DNA from: Opitutales bacterium
GTDB lineage: Bacteria > Verrucomicrobiota > Verrucomicrobiia > Opitutales > Oceanipulchritudinaceae
Length of the DNA stretch: 64,000 bases
Direction: 5' to 3'
Assembly: GCA_016932335.1 (NCBI GenBank)
Contig: JAFGCZ010000012.1
Location: forward strand, 248,001-312,000
In this document: positions 6,887-24,134 of the stretch, piece by piece
Layout: each line of letters starts with the position of its first letter
Numbering within the stretch: position 1 is the stretch's first letter
Notes under the pieces: model-generated
Databases searched by the model: none
What the model saw: the letters and a program-made list of their open reading frames with translations, nothing else
Told to the model about the DNA's origin: nothing
Translations under genes and position numbers: made by a program

Positions 6887-7258
6887 ATGAAAAATATGCT
6901 CAAGTCCAATAAAGCTTTCAGCTTAATCGAATTGATCGTGGTTATTGCCGTTATTGCTGCAATCGCCGTGGTCATTGTTCCCCGCGTAACCAATTTCAGT
7001 GATGCTGCTCAGGATGCAGCTGATCAACGTAATGTCCAACTCTGGAATTCCAGCTATTTAACGGCTTATGCTGCCGATTCAGGAGATAGTGAGCTTCCCA
7101 CAACGGTAGCAAGCACAACTGTAGTACCAAATTTGTCTGTGACTGTTAGAGTAGGCGAAACCGATGTTACTTTTGCTGCCGCCGGATTTACTCTTGAAGG
7201 TGAAGGCAACGAAGTTGCCTTTACTGTAGGAACAGGTCTTACCCTAACGCTTAATTAA
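6887..7258 (+). CDS. Major pseudopilin/type IV pilin-like protein (GspG-like)
   Basis: A 123-residue prepilin: basic leader MKNMLKSNKA, then FSLIELIVVIAVIAAIAVVIVP, the hydrophobic helix with Glu at mature position 5. The residue before the cleavage site is Ala rather than the usual Gly. The short globular part ends in beta-rich, Thr/Val-rich sequence. It is first in the locus, has its own promoter and is followed by a strong terminator, as expected for the most abundant subunit of the filament. No prepilin peptidase gene is in the window, so processing needs one elsewhere. Confidence 0.85.
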   Translation: MKNMLKSNKAFSLIELIVVIAVIAAIAVVIVPRVTNFSDAAQDAADQRNVQLWNSSYLTAYAADSGDSELPTTVASTTVVPNLSVTVRVGETDVTFAAAGFTLEGEGNEVAFTVGTGLTLTLN

Positions 7259-7269
7259 TCTTTCTGTTA

Positions 7270-7307
7270 TAGCCCGTACTGTTTTTTTCAGTGCGGGCTA
7301 TTTTTCT
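7270..7307 (+). terminator. Intrinsic terminator after the first pilin gene
   Basis: TAGCCCGTACTG (7270-7281) pairs with CAGTGCGGGCTA (7289-7300) with one G-T pair and a seven-T loop, followed by TTTTTCTT. It lies four bases before the next pilin gene, so readthrough would set a high first-to-second subunit ratio. Confidence 0.85.
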
Positions 7308-7310
7308 TGA

Positions 7311-7694
7311 ATGTATCAAAGTCGCAAAGGGTTTTCGCTGATTGAGCTGTTGATCGTTATTGTCGTCATAGCGGCGCTTGCTGCTGTCATTGTTCCTTCC
7401 TCCACGGGCGTCAAAGATGCTGCGGATGGGCAGAAGATTATTGCCGCAGCGGAGAACCTCAATCTGGCCATGACTCGGTACAAGATCAATACCGGCGTGC
7501 GTACCTGGCAAGTTACAGATCCTGAAGCACGCTATGCCCTGTTGGCTCCTTACATGGATTTTGCCCCGGCGACTTTGGCGGAATACAACAGCCGCTATGG
7601 TGCTACTTACTCCATCGGCGCTTTAAATCAGAAAGTCGGGGTCTCCTACTCCGACTCTTCGGGAGCCGTTCATAATTTGGGCAGTAATTACTAA
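7311..7694 (+). CDS. Second pseudopilin (GspG/GspH-like)
   Basis: A 127-residue prepilin with leader MYQSRKG and the canonical cleavage context G/FSLIELLIVIVVIAALAAVIVP, including Glu5. The ectodomain has an amphipathic continuation of the helix (KIIAAAENLNLAMTRYKINTG) and a short tail. It starts directly after the terminator of the first pilin gene, so its expression probably depends on readthrough. It is likely a minor or second major subunit of the same filament. Confidence 0.85.
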   Translation: MYQSRKGFSLIELLIVIVVIAALAAVIVPSSTGVKDAADGQKIIAAAENLNLAMTRYKINTGVRTWQVTDPEARYALLAPYMDFAPATLAEYNSRYGATYSIGALNQKVGVSYSDSSGAVHNLGSNY

Positions 7695-7706
7695 AACCAC
7701 ACTCCT

Positions 7707-8528
7707 GTGTTAAAGAGCCGTAAGCGTCTCTCGGGCAGCGATGCCTTTACCATTATTGAACTGTTGCTGACGCTTGTAATTACGGCAATGGCAATGGGGA
7801 TGTTGACGTTAACGTTTTCCAACATCCTGCAAAACCAGCGCACGGAATCTGTGACTATTGCTGGCGTCACTTATCCGGTGGTTCCAGCCTGGGGGGAGTT
7901 GAAGCCTGCCTTTGAGCTTCAATTAACGTTGAATGAGGATCTTGCCCATGCTGCATCCATTTTTGTGTTGGGTGGAGCTTATGAGAGCAGCAGCGGGGTA
8001 GCGGTATCTCCCGGAACTAATTACCCGGCCTTTCCGGCAACCTTAACGGATCTTACGGAATTGAATTCAGCCGAAGGGCTTTCTGTAAATACTGCGTCTC
8101 AATTCCGCGACCTGCTGATGTTGCGTTATAGCAATGCCTTTTATGCTGCAGATCCCCGCGATTTTACAGTTTTTCTGCTGGGATCGGAAACGTCTGATGA
8201 TCGTTCTGCTATTTTGGGCATTGCCGGTGTTCGTGCTGTGGTTTCCTCGGGTTATGTGATTTATCGAGTGGCCTACTACCGTAATCAGTCCGAATCTATG
8301 ACTGAAGTTGCCGGCTATATGTTTGCTGTTGCCGAGGCGGACGATGCGCTCTTCCGGCAGTCCGTTGGCGCCACCCATTTCTGGGGAAGAGAAAATGATA
8401 TGTGGAATGCCTATGAAGAGGTGGGGTGCAAAGTTGTTTTTCCGGATCCGGCGGCGGCTCCCCGGCCCATTACGCCCGATGTGCGCACTTTTTCCCGGTT
8501 TCTTTACTTTTTTACAGTTAAACAATGA
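7707..8528 (+). CDS. Minor pseudopilin (GspJ/PilW-like)
   Basis: A 273-residue protein with basic leader LKSRKRLSGSDA and the N-methylation motif FTIIELLLTLVITAMAMGMLTL. Ala stands at -1 and Glu at +5. The large ectodomain and TFSNILQNQR just after the helix resemble GspJ/PilW. The start is GTG at 7707, since no ATG lies before the leader. Its stop overlaps the next gene by four bases (ATGA), giving translational coupling. It probably belongs to the tip-initiating minor pilin set. Confidence 0.75.
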   Translation: MLKSRKRLSGSDAFTIIELLLTLVITAMAMGMLTLTFSNILQNQRTESVTIAGVTYPVVPAWGELKPAFELQLTLNEDLAHAASIFVLGGAYESSSGVAVSPGTNYPAFPATLTDLTELNSAEGLSVNTASQFRDLLMLRYSNAFYAADPRDFTVFLLGSETSDDRSAILGIAGVRAVVSSGYVIYRVAYYRNQSESMTEVAGYMFAVAEADDALFRQSVGATHFWGRENDMWNAYEEVGCKVVFPDPAAAPRPITPDVRTFSRFLYFFTVKQ

Positions 8529-9985
8529 TGCTTCGCGTTCGGTCCAAAGATCTCCCGTTGGGTGCCTCCCGCAAAAGAGGCGCTATCACGTTGTTTGTTC
8601 TGCTTTTTATCCTTGTAGCGCTTAGCTTTTTCCAGAGTTATATCCATTTCTCAACGGCGGACTATGCCACTGGGCACGACCTTATCCTCTTTAAACAAAA
8701 AGAGGTGGATAAGCAGAATCTGCAGGTAATTCTTAAAGAGGCATTGTTGACTTACTATGAGGGAGGGCAAATGGGGCAACCGACGGGAAGTCTTCCGGAT
8801 CTGATTACAGATCAGCTGAATTTGCTCAGCAGTTCCGATGTTACGTTTGCTCTGACTTCATACCCTTCACTGCCATCCAATTCGCGGGATTTGTTTTGGC
8901 CCTTTATTTCCGGTTCATCCACCGTCCTGAACGGTTCCTTTCGCCTGACGGAAACTGCAGCAGAGCGCAGCTTCAACAGGGTAAATGATTTTCTCGATCC
9001 CGATCTGTCTGCGCTTCAGGTAACCAACGGCAGCAACGGGGATTTTGTTTTTACGTTTAGCAGAACAGAGTCGGGAAAGGAAGCCGAGACTGTTTCCATT
9101 ACTGCTCGCATGTGGCAGGTTCCTGTCTGCGATTTTAACCTGTTTACGTATTCCACATCCGTGCCGTCAAGTATTCCTGCAACACCACCGGTATTGTCTT
9201 CTCAGTTGCAGGCACTGATCAATTCGGGAGCAATTCGTGCGCTGACCCTTTCAGCGATCCCTTCCGGTAGTCTCAGTGGTAATGCCGGAACGGAGTTTCC
9301 ATATGCGTATCGAGAGCTGTCCAGTGCTACGTCTACCGTTTGGCAGTACCTGTTCTATACAATGGGCTATTACCGGCGCCTCGTGCAGAGTAGGGCGCCT
9401 TTTATGCACGATGTAAACCGAGTCATTGACTACGACCCGGCTGTCCCGGGAATCCGTCTCTACGCTCAAGGATCTACCGTCCGCTGGGAGTTGGATATTG
9501 ATGATCTGGAGTCCGATGTTATCCTGGTTTCCGGTGGTGGAAATCCCCTCGCCGAAGTGGAATTGGTTGATTCCAATGACAGTACCACTGTTGGCAATGC
9601 ACCTCTTGTCGTCTATGCGTTTAACCGCGGCAATGTTGGAGAAATGATTTTGCGGATTACGCCTGACTCCACGGATGGATTAGTGCGTCCTTTGCTCTTG
9701 ATTGGCGAGAACGCCTGCTTGGACGCCGGTAAGAATATGACGATGAATGGTGCCGTCTATTTGGAGGATTACGATAGCGTTAATCATGCTATTTCCGGTG
9801 GTGATTACACCTTTAATAACCTCAATCAGGGGAGTCGTGCGTTGACTGTGTATGGCTCTGTTGCCTGGAAATCTCAATTCGCCCTGAGTAATCCCTCTGC
9901 GAACAGTTTACGCATCTATGCGCCTTCAGGGGTAAATCCGGTGCGCGCATTATCGCCTCGTTTTCTTGTTGTTGATACCTTCTGA
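8525..9985 (+). CDS. Minor pilin-like protein (GspK/PilX-like), 486 aa
   Basis: The N-terminus ends its basic leader at SRKRG and continues with AITLFVLLFILVALSFFQSY, a single helix of the GspK/PilX type without the usual Glu5. The ectodomain is about 440 residues with no domain I recognise. GspK-type subunits cap the pseudopilus tip and lack Glu5 in other systems, which fits. The gene sits between the PilW-like and PilV-like genes in a coupled operon. Assignment is from position and N-terminus only. Confidence 0.6.
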   Translation: MMLRVRSKDLPLGASRKRGAITLFVLLFILVALSFFQSYIHFSTADYATGHDLILFKQKEVDKQNLQVILKEALLTYYEGGQMGQPTGSLPDLITDQLNLLSSSDVTFALTSYPSLPSNSRDLFWPFISGSSTVLNGSFRLTETAAERSFNRVNDFLDPDLSALQVTNGSNGDFVFTFSRTESGKEAETVSITARMWQVPVCDFNLFTYSTSVPSSIPATPPVLSSQLQALINSGAIRALTLSAIPSGSLSGNAGTEFPYAYRELSSATSTVWQYLFYTMGYYRRLVQSRAPFMHDVNRVIDYDPAVPGIRLYAQGSTVRWELDIDDLESDVILVSGGGNPLAEVELVDSNDSTTVGNAPLVVYAFNRGNVGEMILRITPDSTDGLVRPLLLIGENACLDAGKNMTMNGAVYLEDYDSVNHAISGGDYTFNNLNQGSRALTVYGSVAWKSQFALSNPSANSLRIYAPSGVNPVRALSPRFLVVDTF

Positions 9986-9986
9986 T

Positions 9987-12788
9987 ATGTCTTTTCCCTG
10001 TTACCAGTCAAAGAATTCAGTTGCTCGAAGCCATTCGCGTTCCGGCATTGTTTTGATTGATATGTTGATCGGGTTGGTCATTCTCGCTGCATTTCTCAGC
10101 GTGGCAGTACTTTTGACGTTGCAGATTGAGGAGATAAAACTGGAAAGTCTGCGCCGTAATGATGAATGTGCCTGGGCCATGCTGCAAAAACAGGCGGCTG
10201 TAAATGGCCTTCGCTCCTATACCGATGCGCAGTTGTTGGGGGAGAATGTGGCTGGTGTTACCAGTCAAGCGGATGCTCCTTTACGGGTCGACAGCAGTTC
10301 AGCGCTTTTACAATCTCACACCATCGGTAATTTGGTGATTACTCCGCGCCTTTGGAGCTACTCCGGGAATTTGGGAAATTGCAAAGCGATCGGTTACATC
10401 CTTCAAGATTGCGGCAATGCCGGCTTTCCGGCGCCTATTTTTGACCGAGAGTTACCTGTGTCGCCCGATTTTACCGTAACCTTTAATGGTGATGTGTCTC
10501 AGGCGATACCAAACGGCGGATCTCATTCGATCGACTTGTTGAGCGGGGATGTGTCCTGGAGCGGAGATGATCTGATTTTCAATTTTACGCTGGCGCAGGA
10601 TGCCCTGCCTGTAGGCTATACTTCAACGCTTTGGTTCCGCCAGGTTGGGGCAGCCGGTTATGCTCCCGTCACGGATTCCTTACCGTTTGACTACACAGTA
10701 GATGTGTCTTTAGCCAAGGATATGGGTAGTGGACTATACGGGATTCCCTTTGAGGCTTTGGTTCGCGCTGTTTCCGCTACGGGGGATGTTGCTCAGGCAG
10801 TATGGTCCGGTTATATCGTTTATAACCGCATAACCCCGACTTTAGTGCAAACCCGCATCCTTACGGATCGTAACACGGTAACGCTTGCGGATGTCAGCCC
10901 GAGTCTTGGTATTTCCGGCGCTGTAAATGCCAACGGTATGAAGGTTGTTGTAACCGGTCCATCAGGAGAGTTGCTTCCAGCGGCCTTTTTCAACGATTCG
11001 TATTTTACTGATACCATTAACGGTATCACGGTTGTGGGAAAGACTTATGATGCGGCAAACGGTGCGATTAGCTTCAATGCTCCGGTTGCAGCCTTCAATG
11101 CCTCAGGGAGTGCTCAGCCCTGGGTTACTACGGTAACCAAAAATAACCCTCTGTTGGCCGGGGTAACCGTTTCCAGAAGCCTCGTTGTTTCTGCCTCCAC
11201 TTTACCGACTCCTGCGTTTACTCCCCCTGGTGGCGATTACGATGGATCCGCCGTGACTATTTCCAATGCGTCCGCATTGCCTTTGGTTTCCGGTGTGGCC
11301 GATGCCGCCTATTGCCACTATTGCTATACCGACGACGGATCGACTGTGATGGAGACCTCGACCCTCTATCAGGCACCTTTCAGTTTGAACATCGATTCCG
11401 GCGATTCTCTCACGCTTCGTGCGCGTGCTTTCCGCAACAGTGTATCTACTCAGGTCTTTCTTCTGGATGGTTCTGCAAGTGCTGCCACTTATACAACCGA
11501 TACCGTCAATGCTGATTTTCAGTGGGGAAATCTTTCATCTCCAAACCATCCCTCTGTGTTAACCGGAGGCTACTGGGAGGTTCCGGCTAATTGGGACCCT
11601 GTTCCGGGAAGCTCTTCAGCGCTAACTGATACAGATCACGTAGGGTTAAGCTTCTTGCTGGGGCGTCACCTACGGAATGACGTTACTGTAACTCTTTCTT
11701 GGAGACTTTCTGATCGATTCCTTTCTGAATTACATTTCAACAATGATCTTTACCGTTATACTCTTGTTGATGGCAACTGGCAGGGATTCGATTTTTACGA
11801 TCCCGATGGAACAGCCGGTTTCTGGGTCGAATCCAGTCCGAAAACATCAACAGGGTTGGATAAACCGCATGTTTTTGAGTGTTTGATTCATCTTTACTCA
11901 GAGCTGGAGCTTTTTATTGAGGAAGGTGCCAGTCTTGAGTATAAAGCACTTCGTGTGGATCAAATGGATGGAGGCTCTTATGGTATTCATAAGCGGGGAC
12001 CTGGATCTGCATATTGGACTTCCGATGATAATGGCTCCCAGACGCCTCTTTATGTTCATGAGGGAAATTTGATTTTGGGTAAAGACGATCCGTTTCCTCA
12101 GACAACAGTCTATTTGGATGGTGGTACGCTCAATGTGAACAAGCATAATAGAACTTCTTGGGCGCAGGGTATTGTTGTTCAGTCGCACTCTGTCATTGAT
12201 ATGGGATCTCAGCTGAATCCATACATAGGATCCAGTGATGCTTTTTCGTTTCAGATGAATTATCTGGATTTAAATGATGGAGTCCATCTGATTATTAAGA
12301 ACTGGATTCCAGGCTCTGATTATGAATCAACAGGCGGCAGTTCAAAATTGATAACAACAACCAAACCCAGCGATGATGATTTAAAGCGCATAGATTTCGA
12401 AGGTTGGGAGGCAGTAGACCCTGGTTACGATGGAGGAGCTAGAGTTGTTTTAATTAATAATTGGCTGTATCATATAATTCCCGCAGCGCCTCGATACAGT
12501 AAGGGAATCGGCTATTTGCAGGTGAATCAGACTTCTACCATCGATTTTGCGAGTGGATCTTCTCTCGAGGTTGAGGGCATAACGATCAGTAGTGGTGCTA
12601 ACCTTATTCTTTACGACTGGGACGATTCCACTTCAGTGTTGCATTCTGTTGAAATGCTGGATTCCTCCTCGCTGAGCAGAATTATTATCCGCGCGCGAAC
12701 TTGGAACTGGTTTTGGGGATGGCGATATCTGGACTATTACGCGGTTCAGGATGCTGACGGAACGATTAGACAAGGGGGGAGGAGATGA
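9987..12788 (+). CDS. PilV/GspI-like pseudopilin with ~900-residue adhesin-like ectodomain
   Basis: The 933-residue product has leader MSFPCYQ...HSRSG, then IVLIDMLIGLVILAAFLSVA, a pilin helix with Ile1 and Asp5 in place of Phe and Glu. The region after the helix (LQIEEIKLESLRRNDECAW) resembles PilV/GspI. The rest is an unusually long extracellular part. About residues 405-505 resemble the chitobiase C-terminal beta domain (PTPAFTPPGGDYDG, YTDDGST, LRARAF). From about 645 the sequence shows Gly-rich beta-strand repeats like autotransporter-associated repeats (LYVHEGNLILGKDD, VYLDGGTLNVNKHN). GspI is normally about 120 residues. Start is ATG 9987, one base after the preceding stop. Likely a tip subunit carrying a binding module. 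Confidence 0.7.
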   Translation: MSFPCYQSKNSVARSHSRSGIVLIDMLIGLVILAAFLSVAVLLTLQIEEIKLESLRRNDECAWAMLQKQAAVNGLRSYTDAQLLGENVAGVTSQADAPLRVDSSSALLQSHTIGNLVITPRLWSYSGNLGNCKAIGYILQDCGNAGFPAPIFDRELPVSPDFTVTFNGDVSQAIPNGGSHSIDLLSGDVSWSGDDLIFNFTLAQDALPVGYTSTLWFRQVGAAGYAPVTDSLPFDYTVDVSLAKDMGSGLYGIPFEALVRAVSATGDVAQAVWSGYIVYNRITPTLVQTRILTDRNTVTLADVSPSLGISGAVNANGMKVVVTGPSGELLPAAFFNDSYFTDTINGITVVGKTYDAANGAISFNAPVAAFNASGSAQPWVTTVTKNNPLLAGVTVSRSLVVSASTLPTPAFTPPGGDYDGSAVTISNASALPLVSGVADAAYCHYCYTDDGSTVMETSTLYQAPFSLNIDSGDSLTLRARAFRNSVSTQVFLLDGSASAATYTTDTVNADFQWGNLSSPNHPSVLTGGYWEVPANWDPVPGSSSALTDTDHVGLSFLLGRHLRNDVTVTLSWRLSDRFLSELHFNNDLYRYTLVDGNWQGFDFYDPDGTAGFWVESSPKTSTGLDKPHVFECLIHLYSELELFIEEGASLEYKALRVDQMDGGSYGIHKRGPGSAYWTSDDNGSQTPLYVHEGNLILGKDDPFPQTTVYLDGGTLNVNKHNRTSWAQGIVVQSHSVIDMGSQLNPYIGSSDAFSFQMNYLDLNDGVHLIIKNWIPGSDYESTGGSSKLITTTKPSDDDLKRIDFEGWEAVDPGYDGGARVVLINNWLYHIIPAAPRYSKGIGYLQVNQTSTIDFASGSSLEVEGITISSGANLILYDWDDSTSVLHSVEMLDSSSLSRIIIRARTWNWFWGWRYLDYYAVQDADGTIRQGGRR

Positions 12789-14374
12789 TCTACCGACTAG
12801 TACATACCCTTATGTTTCTTTGCCTTATTGGTGAAGGTTTTTACGTCAAAAATGCTTACGCGCAAACGAGTGAAACGTTTACCGTGGAGACCGAATTTCG
12901 TAATTCGACGATCTCAACGCCCGGATGGAGCAGAGGAGGGAGTTCATCACTTACCGGAGGTTCTTTAGATCAGGAGGGAAGTGGGTGGTTGCGTTTAACC
13001 GCCAATACAACATATCAAATTGGCTATGCTGCCTACATGGGAACTCCCGTTCCGGCAGCAGACAAGACACTCTATGTATCTTTTGAGTATAAAATGTGGG
13101 GGCCGGATTCTACTCTGGCAGACGGATTTACTTTTTTCCTTTTTGATGGTGCCCGTAATACATTCCGTATCGGGGCAAATGGGGGTTCCCTGGGGTATGC
13201 TCAGAAAACAGGAGTTCCAGGGCTTGGCTCAGGCTATGTTGGTATCGGTTTCGATGTGTTTGGTAATTACTCCAATCCTACCGAGGGACGTGTTGGCGGC
13301 ACTGGCTCTAACAGTAATACCATTTCAGTGCGCGGGAATGAGGCCAGTAACTATGCTTATGTTATGGGAACCTCGGATTCCAATGTCTTTGATTTGAGTG
13401 GTTCTATGTCTATTTCAAGGGTATCTTCACGCCCTGTAGATGCTGTGTCTACCCGCAAAGTGGCCATGATTCTTACCCCGACGAATCAGCTCACCATTTT
13501 TATGCAGGTGGGAACGGGTAAGATGGCTCCACTTTTCACCGCGGATCTGTCCGGTCAGACCAGACCCGAAACCTTTCGTTTTGGGTTTGCCGGTACTACA
13601 GGTGGCAGTAGGCAATATGCTGAGATTCGAGATGTGGTTGTCACTGTATATGATGCATTGCGCTGGGATAATGGTTCCGGTGATTTCTATTGGAATACTG
13701 CGGATAATTGGGTAGGGGATGTCCTGCCCGAGGAGAGTCCTTTGGAGGATGTTAAATTCGATAATCAGACGGGTCTGACTTTACGCCAGGATGTTAATCT
13801 GAACCTGATGAGCCACCCTTTGCGCACGGTAACCATGGATGCGCCCTTTGCTTACCGCCTTTATGATGGGACGCTACTGTTTCAGTCTGCCGTAAAGGGA
13901 TTGTCTCTGAATTCAACCAGTCGGCACGGTTCGGCGGCCCATACCGTGGATGCGGATATCGTGAGCACAGACTTGTTGACCATCAATATTGCAAATCCAT
14001 ACCCCATGACATTGAACGGCGCGATTGATAACGGGGGATACGAACTAAGATTTACCGGAGATCAGGGGAGAATCAACCTTAACGGAGTTGTTAGCGGCTA
14101 TGGTGGCCTTACCAAGGAAGATGCCTTTGATCTCTACGTTAACGGCGATGTGGATAGTCTTTATCGGGGCGATACGCTCTTGCTGGAAGGAAATATCTAT
14201 CTGGATGTGGATCCCGTTTCCGGGGTCAGTCGCTCGGCCTTGGGAAGGGGAGTTATTACTTTGGAAAACGGTACGGAATTGCATCTGTTGCAGGATAACC
14301 AGATCTATGATCGGAGCGACATGACGATGGAGGGGGGCACTTTTTATTTAAACGGAAATGATGAGCTTCATTAG
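12785..14374 (+). CDS. Secreted L-type-lectin-like protein with autotransporter-type repeats
   Basis: A 529-residue exported protein with signal peptide MIYRLVHTLMFLCLIGEGF...AYA. About residues 30-285 resemble a legume/L-type lectin-like sandwich (ADGFTFFLFDGA, GGSLGYAQ, GYVGIGFDVFGNY). A PATR-like part follows, starting LRWDNGSGDFYWNTADNWVG. The protein stops inside what looks like a repeat (GGTFYLNGNDELH) and has no PEP-CTERM or membrane anchor, so it may be shortened. It overlaps the PilV-like gene by four bases and lies inside the pilus operon. It could be a substrate, or a lectin presented by the machine. It lacks a prepilin leader. Confidence 0.65.
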   Translation: MIYRLVHTLMFLCLIGEGFYVKNAYAQTSETFTVETEFRNSTISTPGWSRGGSSSLTGGSLDQEGSGWLRLTANTTYQIGYAAYMGTPVPAADKTLYVSFEYKMWGPDSTLADGFTFFLFDGARNTFRIGANGGSLGYAQKTGVPGLGSGYVGIGFDVFGNYSNPTEGRVGGTGSNSNTISVRGNEASNYAYVMGTSDSNVFDLSGSMSISRVSSRPVDAVSTRKVAMILTPTNQLTIFMQVGTGKMAPLFTADLSGQTRPETFRFGFAGTTGGSRQYAEIRDVVVTVYDALRWDNGSGDFYWNTADNWVGDVLPEESPLEDVKFDNQTGLTLRQDVNLNLMSHPLRTVTMDAPFAYRLYDGTLLFQSAVKGLSLNSTSRHGSAAHTVDADIVSTDLLTINIANPYPMTLNGAIDNGGYELRFTGDQGRINLNGVVSGYGGLTKEDAFDLYVNGDVDSLYRGDTLLLEGNIYLDVDPVSGVSRSALGRGVITLENGTELHLLQDNQIYDRSDMTMEGGTFYLNGNDELH

Positions 14375-14490
14375 CGCATTTTTTACATTTGCATAAGATG
14401 GTTTATTCCTAGTTCTTTTTATAAGTAATTTCCGCATGAAAGACTGGCTTTCTACAGTCAAATACCTTATAAATCAGACTCAGCATTTTT

Positions 14491-15723
14491 ATGGCATCCT
14501 TTTATAAAGTTAAGATCGAGAACACTATATCGCACACATATCGCGAAGTTGTCGTCTTGGCTGATCGCACTGAGGTCGCCTTAAGAGGCTGTGGCCTCAG
14601 TAAGGAGGAACTTCCCGAAATTGAACGCATAAACCCACTCGATCTGGGGCTTGGGTTGATTTCCGCATATAAGTCACCCAATGCCGCAGATCTTGCTGAT
14701 TTTTACGATGGTCTGGTTCAATGTCTGAACATTGGCACCACGATGGTAGAAAGCCTTGGTATCGTCTCTGTGCAACAGCCCAGCCCCTATTTCCGGGGGG
14801 TCATCGGGCGCATTGTTCACGATATGTCGGCAGGTGTGTCCATGTCCGAGGCAATGGGTAAGCACCCTCGAGTTTTCAGCAAACCTACTATTGCCATTAT
14901 CAGGGCAGGGGAAACCAGTGGCGATTTAAAGTCGGTGCTCTCGGCTTTGGCTCGATCTGAGGAACGTTATAACAGAATTGCCTCCAAAATACGCGGAGCC
15001 ATGTATTATCCGGCGATTGTCTGCGTGGTCACTTTTTTTGCGGTAATGTTTATCGGCCTAAAACTGGTGCCGCAGATCTCTAAGATGTATGATTCGTTCC
15101 ATGCCACGCTTCCTTTACCCACAAAAATGGTTTTGTGGTTTTCCCAGATGGCTAGAACTCAGCCGCTTTTTTGGGTCGTGCTGGTGGGGGGGATTGTTTA
15201 TCTGGCGATGAATTTGAAACGAATCATGGAGTCGGATTTCTTTATTCGTCTTGCTTTACGCATTCCTGTGCTGGGGGAGCTGCTGCGCAAAACCATGATA
15301 GCTAGAGCATTCAGAGTGCTTTCTATGCTTTTAAGCGGTGGTATTCGTGTGGGTACCGCTTTTGAAATCACCGCGCTGGCTACGGGATTTTCCGATTTCC
15401 GAAATTCCTTTCTGGATTCAGGTAAACGCATCGTTTCAGGTGATGAACTGCACATTGCCTTTACCCACAACAAGCACCTGTTCGGTTCTAACGGAGACCG
15501 CTATATAGCCTACCTTCGTCTCGCCGCACATACCGGTGCCGCCGGCGATATCCTAAATCGTGTTGCTGCCAACCTCGAAGATGATATTGAAAAGCAGACG
15601 GATGTGCTGCAGCGTTTGATTGAACCTATTTTACTTGGGATGATTGCCGTTATTGTTGGCGGCGTTATCCTTGCCGTGTATTACCCCATCTTTAATTTGG
15701 GCAGTGTGCTGAATAAGCATTAA
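14491..15723 (+). CDS. Type II secretion/type IV pilus inner-membrane platform protein (GspF/PilC)
   Basis: The 410-residue protein has two T2SSF repeats: DFYDGLVQCLNIGTTMVESLG...GETSGDL (first) and LGELLRKTMIARAFRVLSMLLSGGIRV (second). Three membrane helices are visible (about 170-195, 228-248, 380-405, ending GMIAVIVGGVILAVYYPIF). This is the platform that couples the ATPase to pilin extraction. The 116-base spacer upstream holds no gene but is AT-rich and could hold a promoter. It is followed at once by the regulatory pair. Confidence 0.92.
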   Translation: MASFYKVKIENTISHTYREVVVLADRTEVALRGCGLSKEELPEIERINPLDLGLGLISAYKSPNAADLADFYDGLVQCLNIGTTMVESLGIVSVQQPSPYFRGVIGRIVHDMSAGVSMSEAMGKHPRVFSKPTIAIIRAGETSGDLKSVLSALARSEERYNRIASKIRGAMYYPAIVCVVTFFAVMFIGLKLVPQISKMYDSFHATLPLPTKMVLWFSQMARTQPLFWVVLVGGIVYLAMNLKRIMESDFFIRLALRIPVLGELLRKTMIARAFRVLSMLLSGGIRVGTAFEITALATGFSDFRNSFLDSGKRIVSGDELHIAFTHNKHLFGSNGDRYIAYLRLAAHTGAAGDILNRVAANLEDDIEKQTDVLQRLIEPILLGMIAVIVGGVILAVYYPIFNLGSVLNKH

Positions 15724-15739
15724 TGCCTTTTCTTTGGTT

Positions 15740-17332
15740 ATGCTCCTTACTCAACCTTCCAGTTTGGCTTCATCCGGTTCTCCTAAGAAAGGAACTGTAT
15801 TACTCATTGATGACGAGGCTCTTATTCTTGAATCGAGCAAAGATATTGCTGAATTACTGGGATACACCGCAATTACTGCCAACAGTGTCAGCGAAGCAGA
15901 GCGTATATTGACTCAGGAGGGCACTAGGACATTTGATTGTGTGGTTACCGACTACAAAATGCCCACCAAAACAGGGCTGGAATTGCTGGAATGGCTCAGG
16001 CAGTTTGATCCGAACCTGTCCATTATCGTCAGCACCGGATATGCCGGGCATAAAGACGTTGCGTCCATGCTGCGTCATGGTGCGCTCGATGTCCTGAATA
16101 AGCCGGTTCCGCTTGATGTCATGCGGATAGCATTGGATAAAGGCGTTAAGAAAACGAATGATTTACGGGAACAGAATAAGCAGCGTCACTCCATTCTTCA
16201 GGTTGCCGAAGTCTATCAATACCTTTTCCAGTTGCATGGGGTTATCGATTCTCCACAAGCCGATATGTGTTTTATCCCAATGCATCAAGCAGGAGGTGAT
16301 TTTGTCATAATGGACGAGACGGTCCGCCGCCGTTTGTTGATGGTTGCCGATGTTTCCGGGCATGACTTGGACTCCGCCTATTTATCCGCATATATGCAAG
16401 GGGCTGCCACAGGTCTGCTCAAAGGGGGCTATAATCCCGCTCGATTGTTGAGAGAACTGAATCACTTTTTGTTGGAAAAGTGGAATGCCCGTGGTTTTGA
16501 AGATTTTGCCGACGGAGTAAATGAGGCATCCGTTTGCTGTTTACTCGTGGAGATGAATCGTTCTACAGGAAGAGTTGTGTTGCATAACAATGGTATTCCT
16601 GAGCCCGTTTATACCCGGCCGAACGGTCGCAGTGAGACTCAGGGGGTTCGCGGGTGTCCCTTAGGCCTCTATGATGAGATGGACACCGAGGTCATGGAGC
16701 TCCCCGGAACCGATGGAGAAATCCTTGTCTGGAGCGACGGGTTGGAGGATTTTGCCCGTGAGGTTCAAATTGCCTCGGAGGCACTGGCTTATCGCCTGCT
16801 GAACTGTGCCAACCGTGATGCCCAGATAGATTTACTTAAAGAAGCGGAAGATGATGTCTTGGTTGTTCGCTTCAGACTGAAGGATTCTTTTGATCAGTTT
16901 CGTCCTATCGTTCTTTTTGAAGCGCATGGAGGGCAGGCTAAAGATATCGACAGTATTGAAGATTTCTGGAGCCGTTCCATCACCTATGCACTCCCTGATA
17001 TCTCCGAAGATGCCCTTTACGGTATTTTACTGGTTTCCAGAGAAGGCTTCCTTAACGCTATCAGGCATGGATGCAGCGGCGACCCCGAGAAAAAATGCAG
17101 CATTCAGATGCATTATCATCCTTCCTTTTCTACTTTTAGAATTGTTATCTCTGATCCTGGACAGGGGTATGACGATACCTATCTTGTTGACGAAGAACCT
17201 GATCTTGAACAGGAACGCAACAGTGGATTAATTTTGATGAGAAACTTCCCCGATCACGTAAATATTGAGCGTAGAGGGGCTACCGTTATTATGGATTTCT
17301 ATCTCAAAAAGCCTGAGAATCTGGAGGTATAA
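15740..17332 (+). CDS. HsbR-like response regulator: REC + PP2C phosphatase + HATPase kinase
   Basis: 530 aa. An N-terminal receiver domain has LLIDDE, phospho-acceptor D71 in VVTDYKMP and the NKP lysine. The middle is a PP2C/SpoIIE phosphatase with GGDF, ADVSGHD, SDGLED and EDDV, so the metal-binding acidic residues are kept. The C-terminus is a GHKL ATPase of the anti-sigma-factor kinase type: N box EGFLNAIRHG, DPGQGYD and NSGLILM. This three-domain layout is that of HsbR in Pseudomonas and relatives, which can both phosphorylate and dephosphorylate a STAS partner. The STAS gene follows eight bases later. It lies between gspF and gspE, so a role in controlling filament assembly is inferred. 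Start is ATG 15740; a TTG at 15734 is possible. Confidence 0.88.
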   Translation: MLLTQPSSLASSGSPKKGTVLLIDDEALILESSKDIAELLGYTAITANSVSEAERILTQEGTRTFDCVVTDYKMPTKTGLELLEWLRQFDPNLSIIVSTGYAGHKDVASMLRHGALDVLNKPVPLDVMRIALDKGVKKTNDLREQNKQRHSILQVAEVYQYLFQLHGVIDSPQADMCFIPMHQAGGDFVIMDETVRRRLLMVADVSGHDLDSAYLSAYMQGAATGLLKGGYNPARLLRELNHFLLEKWNARGFEDFADGVNEASVCCLLVEMNRSTGRVVLHNNGIPEPVYTRPNGRSETQGVRGCPLGLYDEMDTEVMELPGTDGEILVWSDGLEDFAREVQIASEALAYRLLNCANRDAQIDLLKEAEDDVLVVRFRLKDSFDQFRPIVLFEAHGGQAKDIDSIEDFWSRSITYALPDISEDALYGILLVSREGFLNAIRHGCSGDPEKKCSIQMHYHPSFSTFRIVISDPGQGYDDTYLVDEEPDLEQERNSGLILMRNFPDHVNIERRGATVIMDFYLKKPENLEV

Positions 17333-17339
17333 AAACACC

Positions 17340-17672
17340 ATGTCACTACTTACATTTGAAAATAAAGAAGGAACACTCACCTTGATGGTGGATGGGAATG
17401 TTCTGAGCACCAACATTAAAGCATTGCGTGAAGAATCGCTTCAGTTGATCAACGGAGAGGACCCTTCCGTAGGACCTTGGGATACATTGGTGGTTGATGT
17501 GACTCAGGCTAAGATGATTGATTCCACCGGGCTAAATTTCCTCGTGTTTTTGTGCCGTTTTGTTAAAAAGAAGCAAGCTCGTATGGGGATTTTGGTAGGA
17601 AGTGCGTCTGTGCAAAAAAGCCTTACCTTTGTAAGACTTGACCGGCAGGCCAACATTACTCTCGTTAGCTAA
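17340..17672 (+). CDS. STAS-domain anti-anti-sigma-factor-like protein (HsbA-like)
   Basis: A 110-residue single STAS domain with the phosphorylation motif KMIDSTGLNFLVFL; the Ser after Asp corresponds to the phosphorylated Ser of SpoIIAA-type proteins. It follows the REC-PP2C-HATPase gene with a GGAGG upstream of the ATG at 17340. It is the obvious substrate for both enzyme activities of that protein. What the free STAS protein binds is unknown; GspE, encoded four bases downstream, is a candidate by position only. Confidence 0.88.
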   Translation: MSLLTFENKEGTLTLMVDGNVLSTNIKALREESLQLINGEDPSVGPWDTLVVDVTQAKMIDSTGLNFLVFLCRFVKKKQARMGILVGSASVQKSLTFVRLDRQANITLVS

Positions 17673-17676
17673 CCCT

Positions 17677-19911
17677 ATGGCAGAAAAGACACCATTGCTC
17701 AGCAATTTGGATTATGATGCGTTCCTCAGTATCGTAGAGGGGGGGCAGTCTGATTATTTTATCGATGCCATTGCCTACACGGTAAAAGTGGGGCTTAACC
17801 CTGATGAGGTTCTGCATGTCCTTAGAAAAGAGCATGGTATTTTACCTTTTCCCACTCAGAGCAGAGGTATTGATGAGTCTGTTCTGGAGCAGTTTTTCCG
17901 TTATTTGGAGTTCCACTCCGATATAGATGAAGTTCCAACTCTTGAATCTTTAAAAGCGGTTCCTCCTAGCGAATGGCCTGCGGTTCCGGTTGGAATGTGT
18001 GGCCCTCTGATTATTTTGGGGCACTGTTTCCCTCCGGCCACTAATTGCTGGGGGATGGATTCAGATATGTTCCCTCAGGTTTGGCTGACCCCAAAGATTT
18101 ATTATCATTTTCTTCGTGATACACTCAGTTTTTTGAGTCAACAGAAGAAAGACCCTTCAGTGAAGGTTGACTCCTGTCGGTCTGTTGCTCAGATGCGCAA
18201 CGAGCTTTTGGAGTATGACGAAGAAAACCGTCCGATTCCTGTCCTGCAATGGATGCTTGAAGCGATTCCCATGGAGGAAGATGATCGCGATTCTCTCGTT
18301 GACTCGGTGGATGAAGGTATTCTTATGCTTCCGTCTGGCTATGCTTCGGCATTGATCTTCCTTCAGGAGAAAGCTCCGATTCTGGACATTCGCGAAATGT
18401 ATCTGCAGCGCGATGCCTATGACAAATTACCCCGTAATATTGTAGACCGCTACAAAGTTATTTCCTATCTGGAGACAAGTAAAGAACTCTACGTTATTGT
18501 TCCCAAGCTAGAGGATTTTGAATGTGAGGACCAGATCATCAACCGTCTTCGTCTGGATAAGGAACTGGTTCGTGTTGAAGTGCGCCTCAATGATATTATG
18601 GCTCACCTCGAACGTTTCGAGAGTGTGGGCATTGTCAGTACTGTAGAAGATTCGGAGGCAGCCGAGCATGCATCCAGACAGGTTTCAGGCGATATCAATC
18701 TGAACGAAGATGCGGTTCGTTTGATTAATCCCAAGAGCATCAACACTACACCGGAAGAATTGCTGGAGTGGCTCTTTTATAACGCCATTCTTGGTAAATC
18801 CAGCGACATTCATATCGAGCAGTATAAGGAGCAATGCCGCTTCCGTACGCGTGTCGACGGTATTCTCACTACCATCTATACCGGCCCCTTGAAGATGCTT
18901 ATGCCGGCCGTGTCTATTGTGAAGAATTATTGTAATATGACTCTGAACAATAATGATGCTCAGGATGGACGTTTTTCCATTAAATTTTCCGGTCGTTTGA
19001 TTGATGCTCGTGTCAGTGCCATTCCATGGCGCCGCAGATTCCAGAAACTGACCATACGCCTGTTGGATAAAAGCAGCAGTGTTCGTTCTTTGGAGGAAAT
19101 GGGATTGGATCAACAGCAGCTGAGAACCTTTAGACATGCTATCTCCAGACCTCAGGGAATGATTGTTGTTACTGGTCCCACGGGGAGCGGCAAATCAACT
19201 ACATTGTATGCTGCTCTTCAGGAAGTGAATCAATCCACTGTAAACGTGCAGACGATTGAGGATCCCATTGAATATGAAATGGAGGGCTTGAATCAGACCC
19301 AGGTAGATATTAACCATCACCTTACCTTTAGCTCTGTGCTCCGACGCATTCTCCGTGCCGACCCAGATGTAATTATGGTTGGGGAAGTCCGAGATCAGGA
19401 AACGGCGGTAACTGCGGCCGAGGCTGCCCTTACCGGACACTTGATCTTGACCACGCTGCACTCATTGGATGCGATTAGGGCTATAGGCCGTCTTCTGGCA
19501 ATGGGGGTGCAGCCTTACATGTTGGCAGATTCTCTTATCATGCTGCATGCACAGCGCCTTTTACGTAGGTTGTGCCGCTGTCGCAAAGAAGTCCCCATGA
19601 GTAAAGAATACCGCGATTTATATATAGAAGCCGGAATGATTAGCTCGAATGATACTTCAACGCATATGTCTTTTATCAAGAACGGTTGTCCTGAGTGTTT
19701 TGATTCAGGATATAAAGGGCGTGTTGCTGTCATGGAAATGTGCCCGGTAAACGACCGTATGCGAGACCTCATCAGTTCTCGGGCAACCACTGAAATGCTC
19801 TTGGAACAGGCCATACTTGCGGGCTATGAACCCATGTATCAGGTTGCTTTGCGTAAGGCTCAACTCGGCATAACCTCGGTGGAAGAAGCGCTTAAATTGA
19901 AACGGTTTTAA
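17677..19911 (+). CDS. Assembly ATPase GspE/PilB-type, with long N-terminal extension
   Basis: A 744-residue hexameric secretion ATPase. Walker A is GPTGSGKST (about 500), Asp/Walker B DPDVIMVGEVRD (about 562), and the His box is LTTLHSLDA. A zinc site is present but unusual: CRC at 633-635 and CPEC at 671-674, so CxC rather than CxxC in the first half. The conserved ATPase core begins near residue 360. The first ~330 residues do not look like a typical GspE N-terminal domain and include a Cys/Gly/Pro-rich stretch (GMCGPLIILGHCFPPATNC). Start ATG 17677, four bases after the STAS stop. It powers pseudopilin assembly. Confidence 0.93.
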   Translation: MAEKTPLLSNLDYDAFLSIVEGGQSDYFIDAIAYTVKVGLNPDEVLHVLRKEHGILPFPTQSRGIDESVLEQFFRYLEFHSDIDEVPTLESLKAVPPSEWPAVPVGMCGPLIILGHCFPPATNCWGMDSDMFPQVWLTPKIYYHFLRDTLSFLSQQKKDPSVKVDSCRSVAQMRNELLEYDEENRPIPVLQWMLEAIPMEEDDRDSLVDSVDEGILMLPSGYASALIFLQEKAPILDIREMYLQRDAYDKLPRNIVDRYKVISYLETSKELYVIVPKLEDFECEDQIINRLRLDKELVRVEVRLNDIMAHLERFESVGIVSTVEDSEAAEHASRQVSGDINLNEDAVRLINPKSINTTPEELLEWLFYNAILGKSSDIHIEQYKEQCRFRTRVDGILTTIYTGPLKMLMPAVSIVKNYCNMTLNNNDAQDGRFSIKFSGRLIDARVSAIPWRRRFQKLTIRLLDKSSSVRSLEEMGLDQQQLRTFRHAISRPQGMIVVTGPTGSGKSTTLYAALQEVNQSTVNVQTIEDPIEYEMEGLNQTQVDINHHLTFSSVLRRILRADPDVIMVGEVRDQETAVTAAEAALTGHLILTTLHSLDAIRAIGRLLAMGVQPYMLADSLIMLHAQRLLRRLCRCRKEVPMSKEYRDLYIEAGMISSNDTSTHMSFIKNGCPECFDSGYKGRVAVMEMCPVNDRMRDLISSRATTEMLLEQAILAGYEPMYQVALRKAQLGITSVEEALKLKRF

Positions 19912-19914
19912 GGC

Positions 19915-20826
19915 ATGAAATTACTTAACGACCCCTTTCTCAATCAACTAACCAACTTGTTTAGTCTTAAGGCATTCAGGCCGGATCCGTTTGATATGAC
20001 GGCTCCGCTTTCCGTTCGTTTTCATAATCAGCCGATTCTTGGGGTCTGTATTTATCCTGGAGCTATCAAATTTGCTCAAATTTCTTTTGGCTCCTCTCTA
20101 TCTGTCAAAGAAATTGGAATCATGAGCCGCAAAACAGGCGATGATAAAGAACTGGTGCAACTGATTAATGCGGCCCATAGGGAAACGGGATGTTGTTATG
20201 CTCTGGTGGGTTATAATTATGGATTTAACGCTCTGAAGTCTTTTTCCATCAAAAGATCGGAGAATCTCTGGGCCCAGTTGAAAGACAATCCGGCGATGGT
20301 CTTGGGGGACGATTTTGAGAATGGCCATCAGTATTCTTTAGAGCATCACCCCAACCGGGATGTATCCATCGTTTTTTCCTACGATGCGAATTACTCGACG
20401 CACTTGGAGAAAATTTTTGATCATAGCGAAGTGGAGGTTGTTCGTCTCCAGCATATCATCGGATCGCTGTTTTCTGAGATTTGTCGGAAATTTAATGGTC
20501 TCATGGATTATCCACTTATTATTATGAGCGGTTCTTCTGTTTTCTATCTGGATATTGAAGGCAGTTCTGATCGCGAATGGATGCTCTTACGCAACCGTTC
20601 GGAAAATCCGGTAAACAGCTCTCTGGAGGCCAAGAGGCAACTGAATTTTGTGGAACAAATCCTTCCCCGGGAAGGGAACGTGCTCTTTTATACGGATGAA
20701 TTGAACGATGCAGACCACTGGGAGGACCGCATTAAGGAAATGAGACCTGAGCTTAACCTCGTCTCTGCCTTACCCAAAATGCAGAATACTCAATTTGATA
20801 TCTTTCACACCTTGGCAGGTAATTAA
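19915..20826 (+). CDS. PilM/GspL-cytoplasmic-domain-like protein
   Basis: A 303-residue cytoplasmic protein with no membrane helix. The section ILGVCIYPGAIKFAQISFG resembles the first strand-pair of the actin-like PilM/GspL fold, and its position just after the ATPase and before PilN/O-like genes matches a PilM. The ATP-binding motifs of true PilM are not clear. It would link the ATPase to the inner-membrane PilN/PilO pair. Similarity is weak, so the call leans on gene order. Confidence 0.5.
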   Translation: MKLLNDPFLNQLTNLFSLKAFRPDPFDMTAPLSVRFHNQPILGVCIYPGAIKFAQISFGSSLSVKEIGIMSRKTGDDKELVQLINAAHRETGCCYALVGYNYGFNALKSFSIKRSENLWAQLKDNPAMVLGDDFENGHQYSLEHHPNRDVSIVFSYDANYSTHLEKIFDHSEVEVVRLQHIIGSLFSEICRKFNGLMDYPLIIMSGSSVFYLDIEGSSDREWMLLRNRSENPVNSSLEAKRQLNFVEQILPREGNVLFYTDELNDADHWEDRIKEMRPELNLVSALPKMQNTQFDIFHTLAGN

Positions 20827-20837
20827 GGAGAACATGT

Positions 20838-21434
20838 ATGGTTTCACCGGTTTATGACTTAAGATCGAATGCCAAAACCAAAGGCAATAGAGCTTATCTG
20901 AATCCTCGTCTGGCTATTCTCATGAAGCTCGGTTATGCCCTGCTGGTGGTTGATATCCTTATTTTTGCTTTCTATTCAGGGTGGGGCTTTTACCAGCGTT
21001 GGCAAACCCGGCAGATGGATTTGGATATCGCGCAAAAGCAGGCACAGATTCAGTCTCAAGAGCGCATCCTTTGGTTTTTTGACTGGAAAGACAATACCTT
21101 GCCGATGCAGGAGCTTTTAGTTGAACTCTTTGGTAAACTACCGGAAGATATGCACCTTTCGGAGCTCTCTCTCAACCTTGCTTCCGACGGAAAAACCCTG
21201 CAGATGAAGGTTGCCATCAACAGTGAGAAGAATACCAGCGCACAATATTTTCGTGAGTTAAGTACCTATTTTAAGGATATGGGGCTGGAGATTGTTTCCA
21301 TACAGCAGACACAGGCCATTGGCGCTACTGTATTTGAAGCTCGCATGATGATTGACCACTCACGCATCAACACCAGGCGGCAGATGAGTCTGATGAAGGC
21401 CGTGGCCATGCTTCAGGAGAAAGGGATGCAATGA
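20838..21434 (+). CDS. PilN-like inner-membrane alignment protein
   Basis: 198 aa with a cytoplasmic N-terminus, one membrane helix (LGYALLVVDILIFAFYSGWGF, about 35-55), a coiled-coil-prone stretch (RQMDLDIAQKQAQIQSQE) and a periplasmic ferredoxin-like domain (LPEDMHLSELSLNLASDG). This is the PilN/GspL layout. A clear AAGGAG precedes the ATG at 20838. Its end overlaps the next gene by four bases. Confidence 0.65.
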   Translation: MVSPVYDLRSNAKTKGNRAYLNPRLAILMKLGYALLVVDILIFAFYSGWGFYQRWQTRQMDLDIAQKQAQIQSQERILWFFDWKDNTLPMQELLVELFGKLPEDMHLSELSLNLASDGKTLQMKVAINSEKNTSAQYFRELSTYFKDMGLEIVSIQQTQAIGATVFEARMMIDHSRINTRRQMSLMKAVAMLQEKGMQ

Positions 21435-21988
21435 AGGATTATTTTCTCAGCATGATTGTTTTCTTGGCAGTGCTGCTTCTCGGCACAAACTTTGCCTATT
21501 CCCGTTACCAGCATTTTGAGCAACAGAAGATTATTATGCAGGGAAAACAGGTTCAGGCGGAGATCACTTCTAAGAATATTGAATATAAAGGTGCTCAGTT
21601 AAAGGCCCAGCTTGGGGACGATGATCCCGCGGCTTTTGAGGTAAGCTTTGGTCAAACTCTTCGCAGTATGCAGGATGTTGCTCAAATTGCTCAGAGTATA
21701 AACCGGCAGGCGGAATCACTGCTGATTCCTATTCAGGAGCAAAGAACCGGAGATGTTCTTTTACCCGGACGCCCCGGATCCAATATTACGCAGATTTCTG
21801 CGCATACCTACACCATCAGTTTACTTGGGCAATTCAAGGACTGCCTGACTTGGCTTGGTGTTGTTGAAGATATGTACCCCATGGCTCGCATAGAACACAT
21901 TTCCATGACTCCTTCCGGGGAGTTAATCAATCTGCGATGTTCCCTCGTTTTCCCCCGTGTTGATCCAACCGTGATTTCATCCAAATGA
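21431..21988 (+). CDS. PilO/GspM-like inner-membrane alignment protein
   Basis: 185 aa with one N-terminal membrane helix (FLSMIVFLAVLLLGTNFAYS), a helical stretch and a C-terminal small alpha/beta domain (TYTISLLGQFKDCLTWLGVVEDMYP), which is the pattern of PilO. It would pair with the PilN-like protein in the periplasm. It is coupled by ATGA overlaps to both neighbours. Confidence 0.65.
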   Translation: MKDYFLSMIVFLAVLLLGTNFAYSRYQHFEQQKIIMQGKQVQAEITSKNIEYKGAQLKAQLGDDDPAAFEVSFGQTLRSMQDVAQIAQSINRQAESLLIPIQEQRTGDVLLPGRPGSNITQISAHTYTISLLGQFKDCLTWLGVVEDMYPMARIEHISMTPSGELINLRCSLVFPRVDPTVISSK

Positions 21989-22413
21989 AACCGTATTGCT
22001 TTATTATTGGCTCTCTGATGACTGCGTCTTTAAGCAGCTGGGCTTCTGTTGTTGTTCCCAATGATTTGAGAAACCCCTTCGAGGTGGCAAGCCCGTCTGG
22101 TTTTATTGAAACGTCAGATACAGCACTTCCTGAGCTCAACGATGCCCAGAAAATGCGGCAAAAAAACTTTTTTGATTTGGCCAAACAGTTGCGTTCTCTC
22201 CCCTTTCTAGGTGTTATCTCTCATCCTGATCGGGATGGGGAATGTCTCGTTTTACTCGGGGACTATATTTTTTCTGAAAACATGGATGTAGATCCTTCAT
22301 CGTTTAATTTCCCCGGGTCTATCCATGTTCTGCGTGTTGAATCCCGTAAAATGCTAATATCTGTCTCTCTGGATGCAGAAGTGCGCGAAATCGAAATTCC
22401 CTTTCAGCAATGA
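21985..22413 (+). CDS. PilP/GspC-like periplasmic protein
   Basis: 142 aa with a signal peptide (MKPYCFIIGSLMTASLSSWAS), the RNPF motif typical of PilP/GspC homology regions, and a beta-rich C-terminal domain (LPFLGVISHPDRDGECLVLLGDYIF). PilP links the PilNO pair to the secretin. No lipobox cysteine is seen, so it is probably soluble in the periplasm. It lies immediately before the secretin with a four-base overlap. Confidence 0.6.
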   Translation: MKPYCFIIGSLMTASLSSWASVVVPNDLRNPFEVASPSGFIETSDTALPELNDAQKMRQKNFFDLAKQLRSLPFLGVISHPDRDGECLVLLGDYIFSENMDVDPSSFNFPGSIHVLRVESRKMLISVSLDAEVREIEIPFQQ

Positions 22414-24134
22414 ATATCAAAAAAACGTTCCCTTTCCTTTTTTTGCTTCTTTCGTCAATCTCTGCCTCTGCCGTAATCATCAGTGAGGATTACGAGTTGA
22501 GTGCAGACGAAATCCAGCGTCTGATGGAAATGCCTGAGGTGAGTATGCGTTTCCAGAATGCACCTCTACCAAATGTGCTCAGGGCCTTGGCAGAAGCATC
22601 CAACATGCCTTTTATTGGACTTCCCAGAGATGGCTCCGAATCAGTGCTGGTCGATATGACTGTAAAAGGAAATGCCTTCGAAAGCCTTGAGCAGGTTGCA
22701 GAAACCTACGGCTATGCCTTGGTCTTTCAGAAGGGGATTTGGCTTTTCCGACCGATCCAGCAGGTAAAAACAAAACTCGTCTCGAAGGTATACAATTTAA
22801 AGAATATTCATCTCAGTTCTGTTGAACCGGATCAACAGCGCATCGATGTGGACGGTGATACCACCTCAGCTCGCCCTCAGAGTGTTATGACCAATGTGTT
22901 CTCTACGGCTCCCAGCAAATTGATTGATGACATCGAGACACTTTTAGCTATCGATCCGGATGTCCTCTCCGCCAGTGTTCAGATGAAGAATCAAGAAACT
23001 TCATCTGTTTTGAGTGATTCCAAATCGGGCATCGCCGAACTTCTTCTGGGGACATCTCCGGAGGATATGAAAGCCAATGTCCTTCAGGCGTTGAAGGTGG
23101 CTCCGGCTTCAACTCAAGAATCCCGTAGTGAAACACCTAGAGGAGCTGTTATTGCCAATCCCGACCGTAACAGTCTCTTTATTGTGGCTACTCGTAATCA
23201 GCACGAGTGGATCAGTGCTTATCTGGACGCGGTGGACTGTCCTCGAAAGCTGATTCTTCTGGAGACTCGTTTTATTGAAGTGCGCAAGGAGCCGTCCATG
23301 AACTTGGGCTTGGATTGGTCGAGCATTCTCTCGGGGAATTATGACATAACAGCTACAGACGCAACTCCAGGCATTGATGGCACTGGCGAAATTAATGTAT
23401 TGGAGGGGGGGACTTTCTTTACAGAAAACATCGGCGGAGCCATCCTTTCTGCTCCTGAGTTGAATGTTGCGTTGAATTTTTTGAGAAATAATGCGGATGC
23501 CCGCAATTTGCAGCATCCAAGTCAGGTTACCGTTAACAACCGACCAGTGGTGCTGCGCAGTGTTCGTCAGGAGCCTTTCCAGAGCGGTTCATCCACCAAT
23601 GCCAGCAGTGGTACTTCTTCAACTACAAACAATACTGAATACCTGCCCATTGGCACGACTATCAGTTTGTTACCCCGTATTATGGAAGGCGAGAATGTGG
23701 AACTGAATATTCTCATCAATGTATCGGACTTGCTTGGCTATACCACGATAGGGGATGCTCAGACGCCCATTACTTCATCCCGCGACTATTCGGGCCAGGC
23801 TATTGTTTGCAGCGGCAACACTCTGGCTATTGCCGGTCTCGAAGCTCTCTTGGAAAACGAAGATGAAAACAAAGTGCCTATCCTTGGTGATATTCCTTTC
23901 TTTGGCTATCTGTTTAAGCGTAAATCAACTTCCCAGAATAACTTCCAGCTGATTATGTTCATTACTGCTACAGTGATGGATGGCTACGATGGTGGGGTAA
24001 AACCACGCAAAGGATTGCAGCAAACATTGGATTATTTCGACTCTCTGGAATCCCTGGAGGACGCTCTGGGTGACGTAGACCAGTTGAATTCAAATTCTGC
24101 AAACAGCAAACCCGTCATTCGTAAATACAAATGA
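22410..24134 (+). CDS. Outer-membrane secretin (GspD/PilQ family)
   Basis: 574 aa with a signal peptide (MNIKKTFPFLFLLLSSISASA). A first STN/N0-like domain (MRFQNAPLPNVLRALAEASN...VTMTVKG-type) is followed by an N1-like ring-forming domain (NSLFIVATRNQHEWISAYLDAVD) and the secretin core (VTVNNRPVVLRSV, LPIGTTISLLPRIM, KVPILGDIPFFGYLFKRKS). It forms the gated outer-membrane channel for the filament. It is short for a GspD, which usually has more N domains, and closer in size to compact PilQ proteins. It is the last gene of the locus; a hairpin spans its stop codon. Confidence 0.92.
   Translation: MNIKKTFPFLFLLLSSISASAVIISEDYELSADEIQRLMEMPEVSMRFQNAPLPNVLRALAEASNMPFIGLPRDGSESVLVDMTVKGNAFESLEQVAETYGYALVFQKGIWLFRPIQQVKTKLVSKVYNLKNIHLSSVEPDQQRIDVDGDTTSARPQSVMTNVFSTAPSKLIDDIETLLAIDPDVLSASVQMKNQETSSVLSDSKSGIAELLLGTSPEDMKANVLQALKVAPASTQESRSETPRGAVIANPDRNSLFIVATRNQHEWISAYLDAVDCPRKLILLETRFIEVRKEPSMNLGLDWSSILSGNYDITATDATPGIDGTGEINVLEGGTFFTENIGGAILSAPELNVALNFLRNNADARNLQHPSQVTVNNRPVVLRSVRQEPFQSGSSTNASSGTSSTTNNTEYLPIGTTISLLPRIMEGENVELNILINVSDLLGYTTIGDAQTPITSSRDYSGQAIVCSGNTLAIAGLEALLENEDENKVPILGDIPFFGYLFKRKSTSQNNFQLIMFITATVMDGYDGGVKPRKGLQQTLDYFDSLESLEDALGDVDQLNSNSANSKPVIRKYK

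Follow-up and report, generated by a model that had tools for sequence, protein, structure and literature searches.

A predicted partner switch encoded directly before the assembly ATPase gene of a probable accessory type IV filament system in an Opitutales bacterium

Described partner switches and the present locus

Partner switches in which a response regulator, a phosphatase, and a kinase share one chain are known from HsbR–HsbA of Pseudomonas aeruginosa and CrsR–CrsA of Shewanella. HsbR and CrsR both carry REC, PP2C, and GHKL domains in that order, the STAS partner with its conserved phosphoserine is a separate protein, and the phosphorylation state of HsbR decides whether it phosphorylates or dephosphorylates the STAS serine (PMC6482189). 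A partner switch can also be encoded at a secretion locus. Specifically, BtrU–BtrV–BtrW lies at the Bordetella type III secretion locus and is needed for secretion (PMC7498569). In two further systems, SypE–SypA of Vibrio fischeri and HmpU–V–W of Nostoc, the STAS protein is the output; the SypE–SypA genes lie in a polysaccharide locus that is under their control, and Hmp influences hormogonium motility, which depends on type IV pili (PMC8256260, PMC6495340). Finally, SiaC of P. aeruginosa, a partner controlled by phosphorylation, acts directly on the enzyme SiaD and not on a sigma factor (PMC8457831). Most of the regulation of PilB/GspE ATPases known at present relies on c-di-GMP, PilZ/FimX, and inhibitory peptides (PMC11656802). 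We found no report in the open-access literature of a STAS switch acting on PilB or on another pilus or secretion ATPase, and the term "STAS" does not occur in a 2024 review of PilB cofactors.

Here, we analyze a 64,000-nucleotide stretch of DNA (the window, to which all unlabelled coordinates refer) from an Opitutales bacterium of the Oceanipulchritudinaceae (assembly GCA_016932335.1, contig JAFGCZ010000012.1, positions 248,001–312,000 of the forward strand). The window encodes a REC–PP2C(SpoIIE)–GHKL protein, which we call the switch, together with a STAS partner. Unlike HsbR–HsbA and CrsR–CrsA, the pair lies inside a pilus/secretion operon, directly before the ATPase gene. FlgM, the HsbA-specific target, is not matched in any of the four genomes that carry the arrangement, in searches whose controls were positive. 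BtrUVW consists of three separate proteins and serves a type III system, whereas in the window kinase, phosphatase, and REC are fused and the machine belongs to the type IV filament class. The Syp and Hmp switches, according to the papers cited above, are not encoded in a pilus operon beside a motor ATPase, and they differ in domain order or in how the genes are split. The target of SiaC is a diguanylate cyclase rather than a secretion ATPase, and its kinase/phosphatase set is another. A sequence-only reading had proposed the locus as a candidate for an undescribed system. Precedents for switches at machine loci (BtrUVW, SypE/SypA, and HmpUVW; PMC7498569, PMC8256260) soften that proposal, and in the papers searched we found none tied to the ATPase of a type IV filament.

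The filament locus

The locus spans 6887–24134, with all genes on the + strand (assignments from Pfam and NCBIfam). It opens with two type IV pilin-like proteins (6887..7258, N_methyl 3.8e-5; 7311..7694, N_methyl 1.8e-7). Between their genes, at 7269–7301, lies a strong terminator-like hairpin of 13 pairs followed by TTTT; thus, the first pilin may be expressed more than the downstream genes. Three larger proteins lacking Pfam matches follow: one of 273 residues with a pilin-like N terminus, judged by eye (7707..8528), one of 486 residues with a hydrophobic N terminus, possibly minor pilin-like (8525..9985), and one of 940 residues with a pilin-like N terminus, a long exported part, and an uncertain start (9966..12788). 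Next come a lectin-like exported protein, a possible substrate or adhesin (12785..14374; Lectin_L-type_dom 4.9e-7, below the curated cut-off), and the GspF/PilC platform protein (14491..15723; T2SSF 2.3e-38). In one relative, the counterpart of the lectin-like protein (L082:7951-11169) is of double length and carries fibronectin type III domains, which suggests that the protein is a fast-changing adhesin or substrate.

The remainder of the locus consists of the switch gene (15740..17332), the STAS gene (17340..17672), a gene for a GspE/PilB-type assembly ATPase with a clade-specific N-terminal region (17677..19911; T2SSE 5.3e-101), PilM-, PilN-, PilO-, and PilP-like genes, and a secretin gene (22410..24134; Secretin 1.6e-32). 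The sequence-only reading of a pilus/secretion locus with REC–PP2C–HATPase and STAS genes between gspF and gspE is confirmed by Pfam, with E-values far beyond chance. Its PilM/N/O/P assignments need qualification. The PilM or GspL-cytoplasmic-like protein (19915..20826), for which Pfam, NCBIfam, and PDB profile searches return no sequence match, is tentatively identified by its conserved place in the gene order and by a weak model (pLDDT 53) that Foldseek matches to PilM (2ych, 5eou), GspL (4pht), and FtsA. The PilN-like (20838..21434), PilO-like (21431..21988), and PilP-like (21985..22413) proteins lack matches in Pfam and NCBIfam; they are named for position, size, conserved order, and distant class-wide matches.

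Assembly ATPase, platform protein, secretin, and prepilin-type subunits are thus all recognized by Pfam in the locus. To call the set "complete," as the sequence-only reading did, is too strong: neither a prepilin peptidase nor PilT is encoded there, and the sole T2SSE-family gene recognized is the PilB/GspE-like one. Each of the four genomes has one Peptidase_A24 gene outside the locus. GspE, GspF, and the secretin score below the NCBIfam cut-offs for the named T2SS, T4P (T4aP), and MSHA equivalogs, and we therefore regard the machine as a divergent type IV filament system, assigned to neither T2SS nor T4P. Because the window's genome has further GspE/PilB/PilT-type genes outside the locus, this machine is probably an accessory type IV filament system.

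Switch and STAS proteins

The switch combines Response_reg (2e-20), SpoIIE (2e-19), and HATPase_c_2 (1e-13) matches in one chain, and the order REC, PP2C, GHKL is the same in all four switch proteins linked to gspE. With its single-domain STAS neighbor (STAS 2.1e-9), it has the three-domain architecture of HsbR, as had been proposed. Signature residues are intact throughout and, in alignment, conserved in the gspE-linked relatives: D26/D27/D73/K123 in REC; G188–D189, D206, D335–G336, and D373–D374 in PP2C; and E437/N441, D474xGxG, and G498 in GHKL. The STAS motif DSTGL, with its conserved serine, is present in 4/4 linked loci. The earlier claim that phosphatase, kinase, and phosphosite residues are all present is therefore borne out and extends to the linked relatives. 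From these intact residues, we infer that the switch would run a kinase/phosphatase cycle on STAS.

Reading of the sequence, aided for the switch by alignment with relatives, corrects the start codons to ATG 15740 for the switch, ATG 17340 for STAS, and ATG 17677 for gspE. The intergenic gaps are 16 nt (gspF–switch), 7 nt (switch–STAS), and 4 nt (STAS–gspE), and a GGAGG upstream of the STAS gene (about 17323) sits within the 3′ end of the switch gene. These short gaps and the embedded GGAGG make cotranscription and translational coupling of these genes likely.

Linkage to gspE in related genomes

Of 17 family genomes, four encode a GspE with full-length similarity: the window's own and three from a single other genus (60–61%). 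A scan of contigs with a switch profile matched three metagenome-assembled relatives (Puniceicoccales Verruco_01, Verruco_02, and Opitutales Zod_Metabat.372); beyond these three, matches covered the REC part only. The series switch–STAS–gspE–pilM–N–O–P–secretin is contiguous in all four genomes in which the machine was found, a comparison that spans two genera and rests on draft assemblies and one evolutionary origin. The block from the pilins to gspF behaves differently. It is orthologous gene by gene in genomes G012 and G015, where it lies downstream of the secretin gene instead of upstream as in the window. The corresponding gspF of G008 sits on a separate contig. GspF orthologues stand at 51–53%. 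The window's flanking genes (ligA, a glycosyltransferase, a deaminase, a PALP enzyme, and a photolyase) were not found in the relatives' regions examined. The moved or detached pilin–gspF block and the unshared flanks indicate that the conserved unit runs from switch–STAS–gspE onward, and that the contact of gspF with the switch is particular to the window. Thus, of the order gspF–switch–STAS–gspE that the sequence-only reading expected to be conserved, the last three genes hold together and the gspF–switch junction does not. The recurring adjacency argues that the linkage is not accidental. Pairs scattered and unlinked to gspE, the pattern taken beforehand as the mark of an accidental link, are confined to a distinct lineage that is about 30% identical.

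One further candidate, a GspE gene near a switch gene in genome G005, was not counted as linkage: it lies on the opposite strand, with a gene in between, and its product has the ordinary PilB-type length.

In distantly related loci of the class, another gene fills the position held by the window's gspE. A sample of 286 genomes from the class yielded distant PilM-like relatives (E down to 1e-12) in 18 further genomes. Their loci (L113–L130) resemble the window's in encoding, with varying completeness, a distant PilM, N/O/P, GspF, and secretin. They differ in having a PilT-like ATPase gene directly before pilM, exactly where the window has gspE. No switch and STAS pair was found in the stretches examined around them; some of these stretches have a single REC-domain match at the edge.

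Stand-alone cassettes

Switch homologues of about 30% identity are found elsewhere in the family and order, mostly with an adjacent STAS gene and in varied neighborhoods; such stand-alone cassettes are widespread and are not joined to gspE. Across the class, full-length homologues occur in 24 of 286 genomes (E up to 1e-45), and in the stretches examined around them, none but the window's lies in one operon with gspE. In a tree, the four gspE-linked switch proteins group in a single, long-stemmed clade (100/100), and most of the family's stand-alone switch proteins have a clade of their own (98/98). A single recruitment with subsequent descent would explain these data. The window's genome also has a stand-alone pair, C15:2522-4424 (L077), with signature residues intact; the meeting of long branches in the tree leaves its placement uncertain. 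About 3 kb away from this pair is a sigma-factor gene.

The GspE N-terminal region

In the linked GspE proteins, about 230 residues precede an MshEN-like part. The latter is matched in all four (best E 1.6e-10; the window's falls just under the curated cut-off). A profile of the N-terminal region matches the same four genomes only among 373 of the order, and the window's genome only among 388 of the phylum. A PDB profile search with the region found nothing, and an AlphaFold model built from the four sequences has a pLDDT of 35. Since the four cases share a single origin, the co-occurrence of this region with the switch counts once. In known PilB proteins, the N1 domain is where regulators such as PilZ bind (PMC11656802). 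By analogy, the GspE N-terminal region is the first candidate for STAS binding and would be the likeliest STAS target; alternative targets would be PilM, GspF, or the product of a gene outside the locus.

Possible action on the motor

From the neighborhood, we infer that the machine is the output of the switch, and the direct action on assembly that the sequence-only reading raised is plausible. The notion is as follows. A putative histidine kinase would phosphorylate the REC domain of the switch. REC phosphorylation would tip the switch from one activity to the other, so that the STAS serine would be either phosphorylated by GHKL or dephosphorylated by PP2C. In one phosphorylation state, STAS would bind the motor, most likely at the GspE N-terminal region, and this binding would permit or block assembly. 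Control would thus be exerted after the machine's parts have been made. We tentatively favor such an HsbR/HsbA-type partner switch, dedicated to one accessory type IV pilus/T2SS-like machine and acting directly on its motor, while judging its chance slightly below even. The conserved block suggests, short of proof, that the switch could turn the motor on and off. The contiguous series in 4/4 genomes, the mobile pilin–gspF block, the short gaps, the single switch clade, the co-occurring GspE N-terminal region, and the intact residues together bring direct action to nearly an even prospect. Somewhat less probable, yet still a serious possibility, is the more specific proposal that STAS docks on the clade-specific N-terminal region and, through phosphorylation of its serine, gates the assembly of the pilus or secretion machine, with no sigma factor involved. 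SiaC and SiaD provide a precedent for a STAS-type partner acting directly on an enzyme (PMC8457831).

The same genes could instead form a transcriptional switch, working either by sequestration of a sigma factor on the GHKL domain, in the manner of CrsR and HsbR with RpoS, or by binding of STAS to a separate anti-sigma factor. The pilus operon would then be just one of the switched gene sets, and one that also contains the switch genes. Binding of RpoS by proteins of the same three-domain architecture (PMC6482189) and the presence of non-housekeeping sigma factors in 4/4 genomes speak for this possibility. However, among the Pfam-matching genes of the locus no sigma, anti-sigma, or cyclase gene is recognized, the block holds no recognized sigma or anti-sigma gene in any of the four genomes, and FlgM is absent. 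Moreover, transcriptional control alone leaves the unique GspE N-terminal region and the fixed position before gspE unexplained. We consider it unlikely, though a genuine contender.

Two further explanations carry less weight. STAS could activate a diguanylate cyclase encoded elsewhere, and c-di-GMP could then act on the motor. HsbA binds the cyclase HsbD (PMC6482189), SiaC activates SiaD (PMC8457831), and the MshEN-like part of the four linked GspE proteins fits such a route. The strict c-di-GMP motif (PMC5013675) is not seen in these proteins, a weak argument because most GspE/PilB proteins of the family lack it too; we judge the route quite improbable. Alternatively, a stand-alone cassette could have inserted upstream of gspE a single time, in an ancestor, and have been kept by descent with no functional tie. 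Cassettes of this type are frequent in both family and class, in a variety of contexts, and the four linked cases stem from one event. Against such passive retention, the switch–STAS–gspE junction has survived divergence to about 45–60% identity while the order of nearby genes changed and flanking genes were lost, and we regard it as improbable.

If the switch does act on the motor, partner switching by serine phosphorylation would be a further control route for PilB/GspE ATPases. It would likewise offer a defined candidate target for switches whose output is the STAS protein, such as SypA and HmpV, because here the GspE is encoded next door and has an unusual N-terminal region.

In two relatives, a gene of about 1,200 codons adjoins the switch gene and is divergent from it (L061:5907-9554 and L062:11942-15565). 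A REC domain, in the L062 (G012) copy, is the sole domain recognized, and the product is a possible signalling partner.
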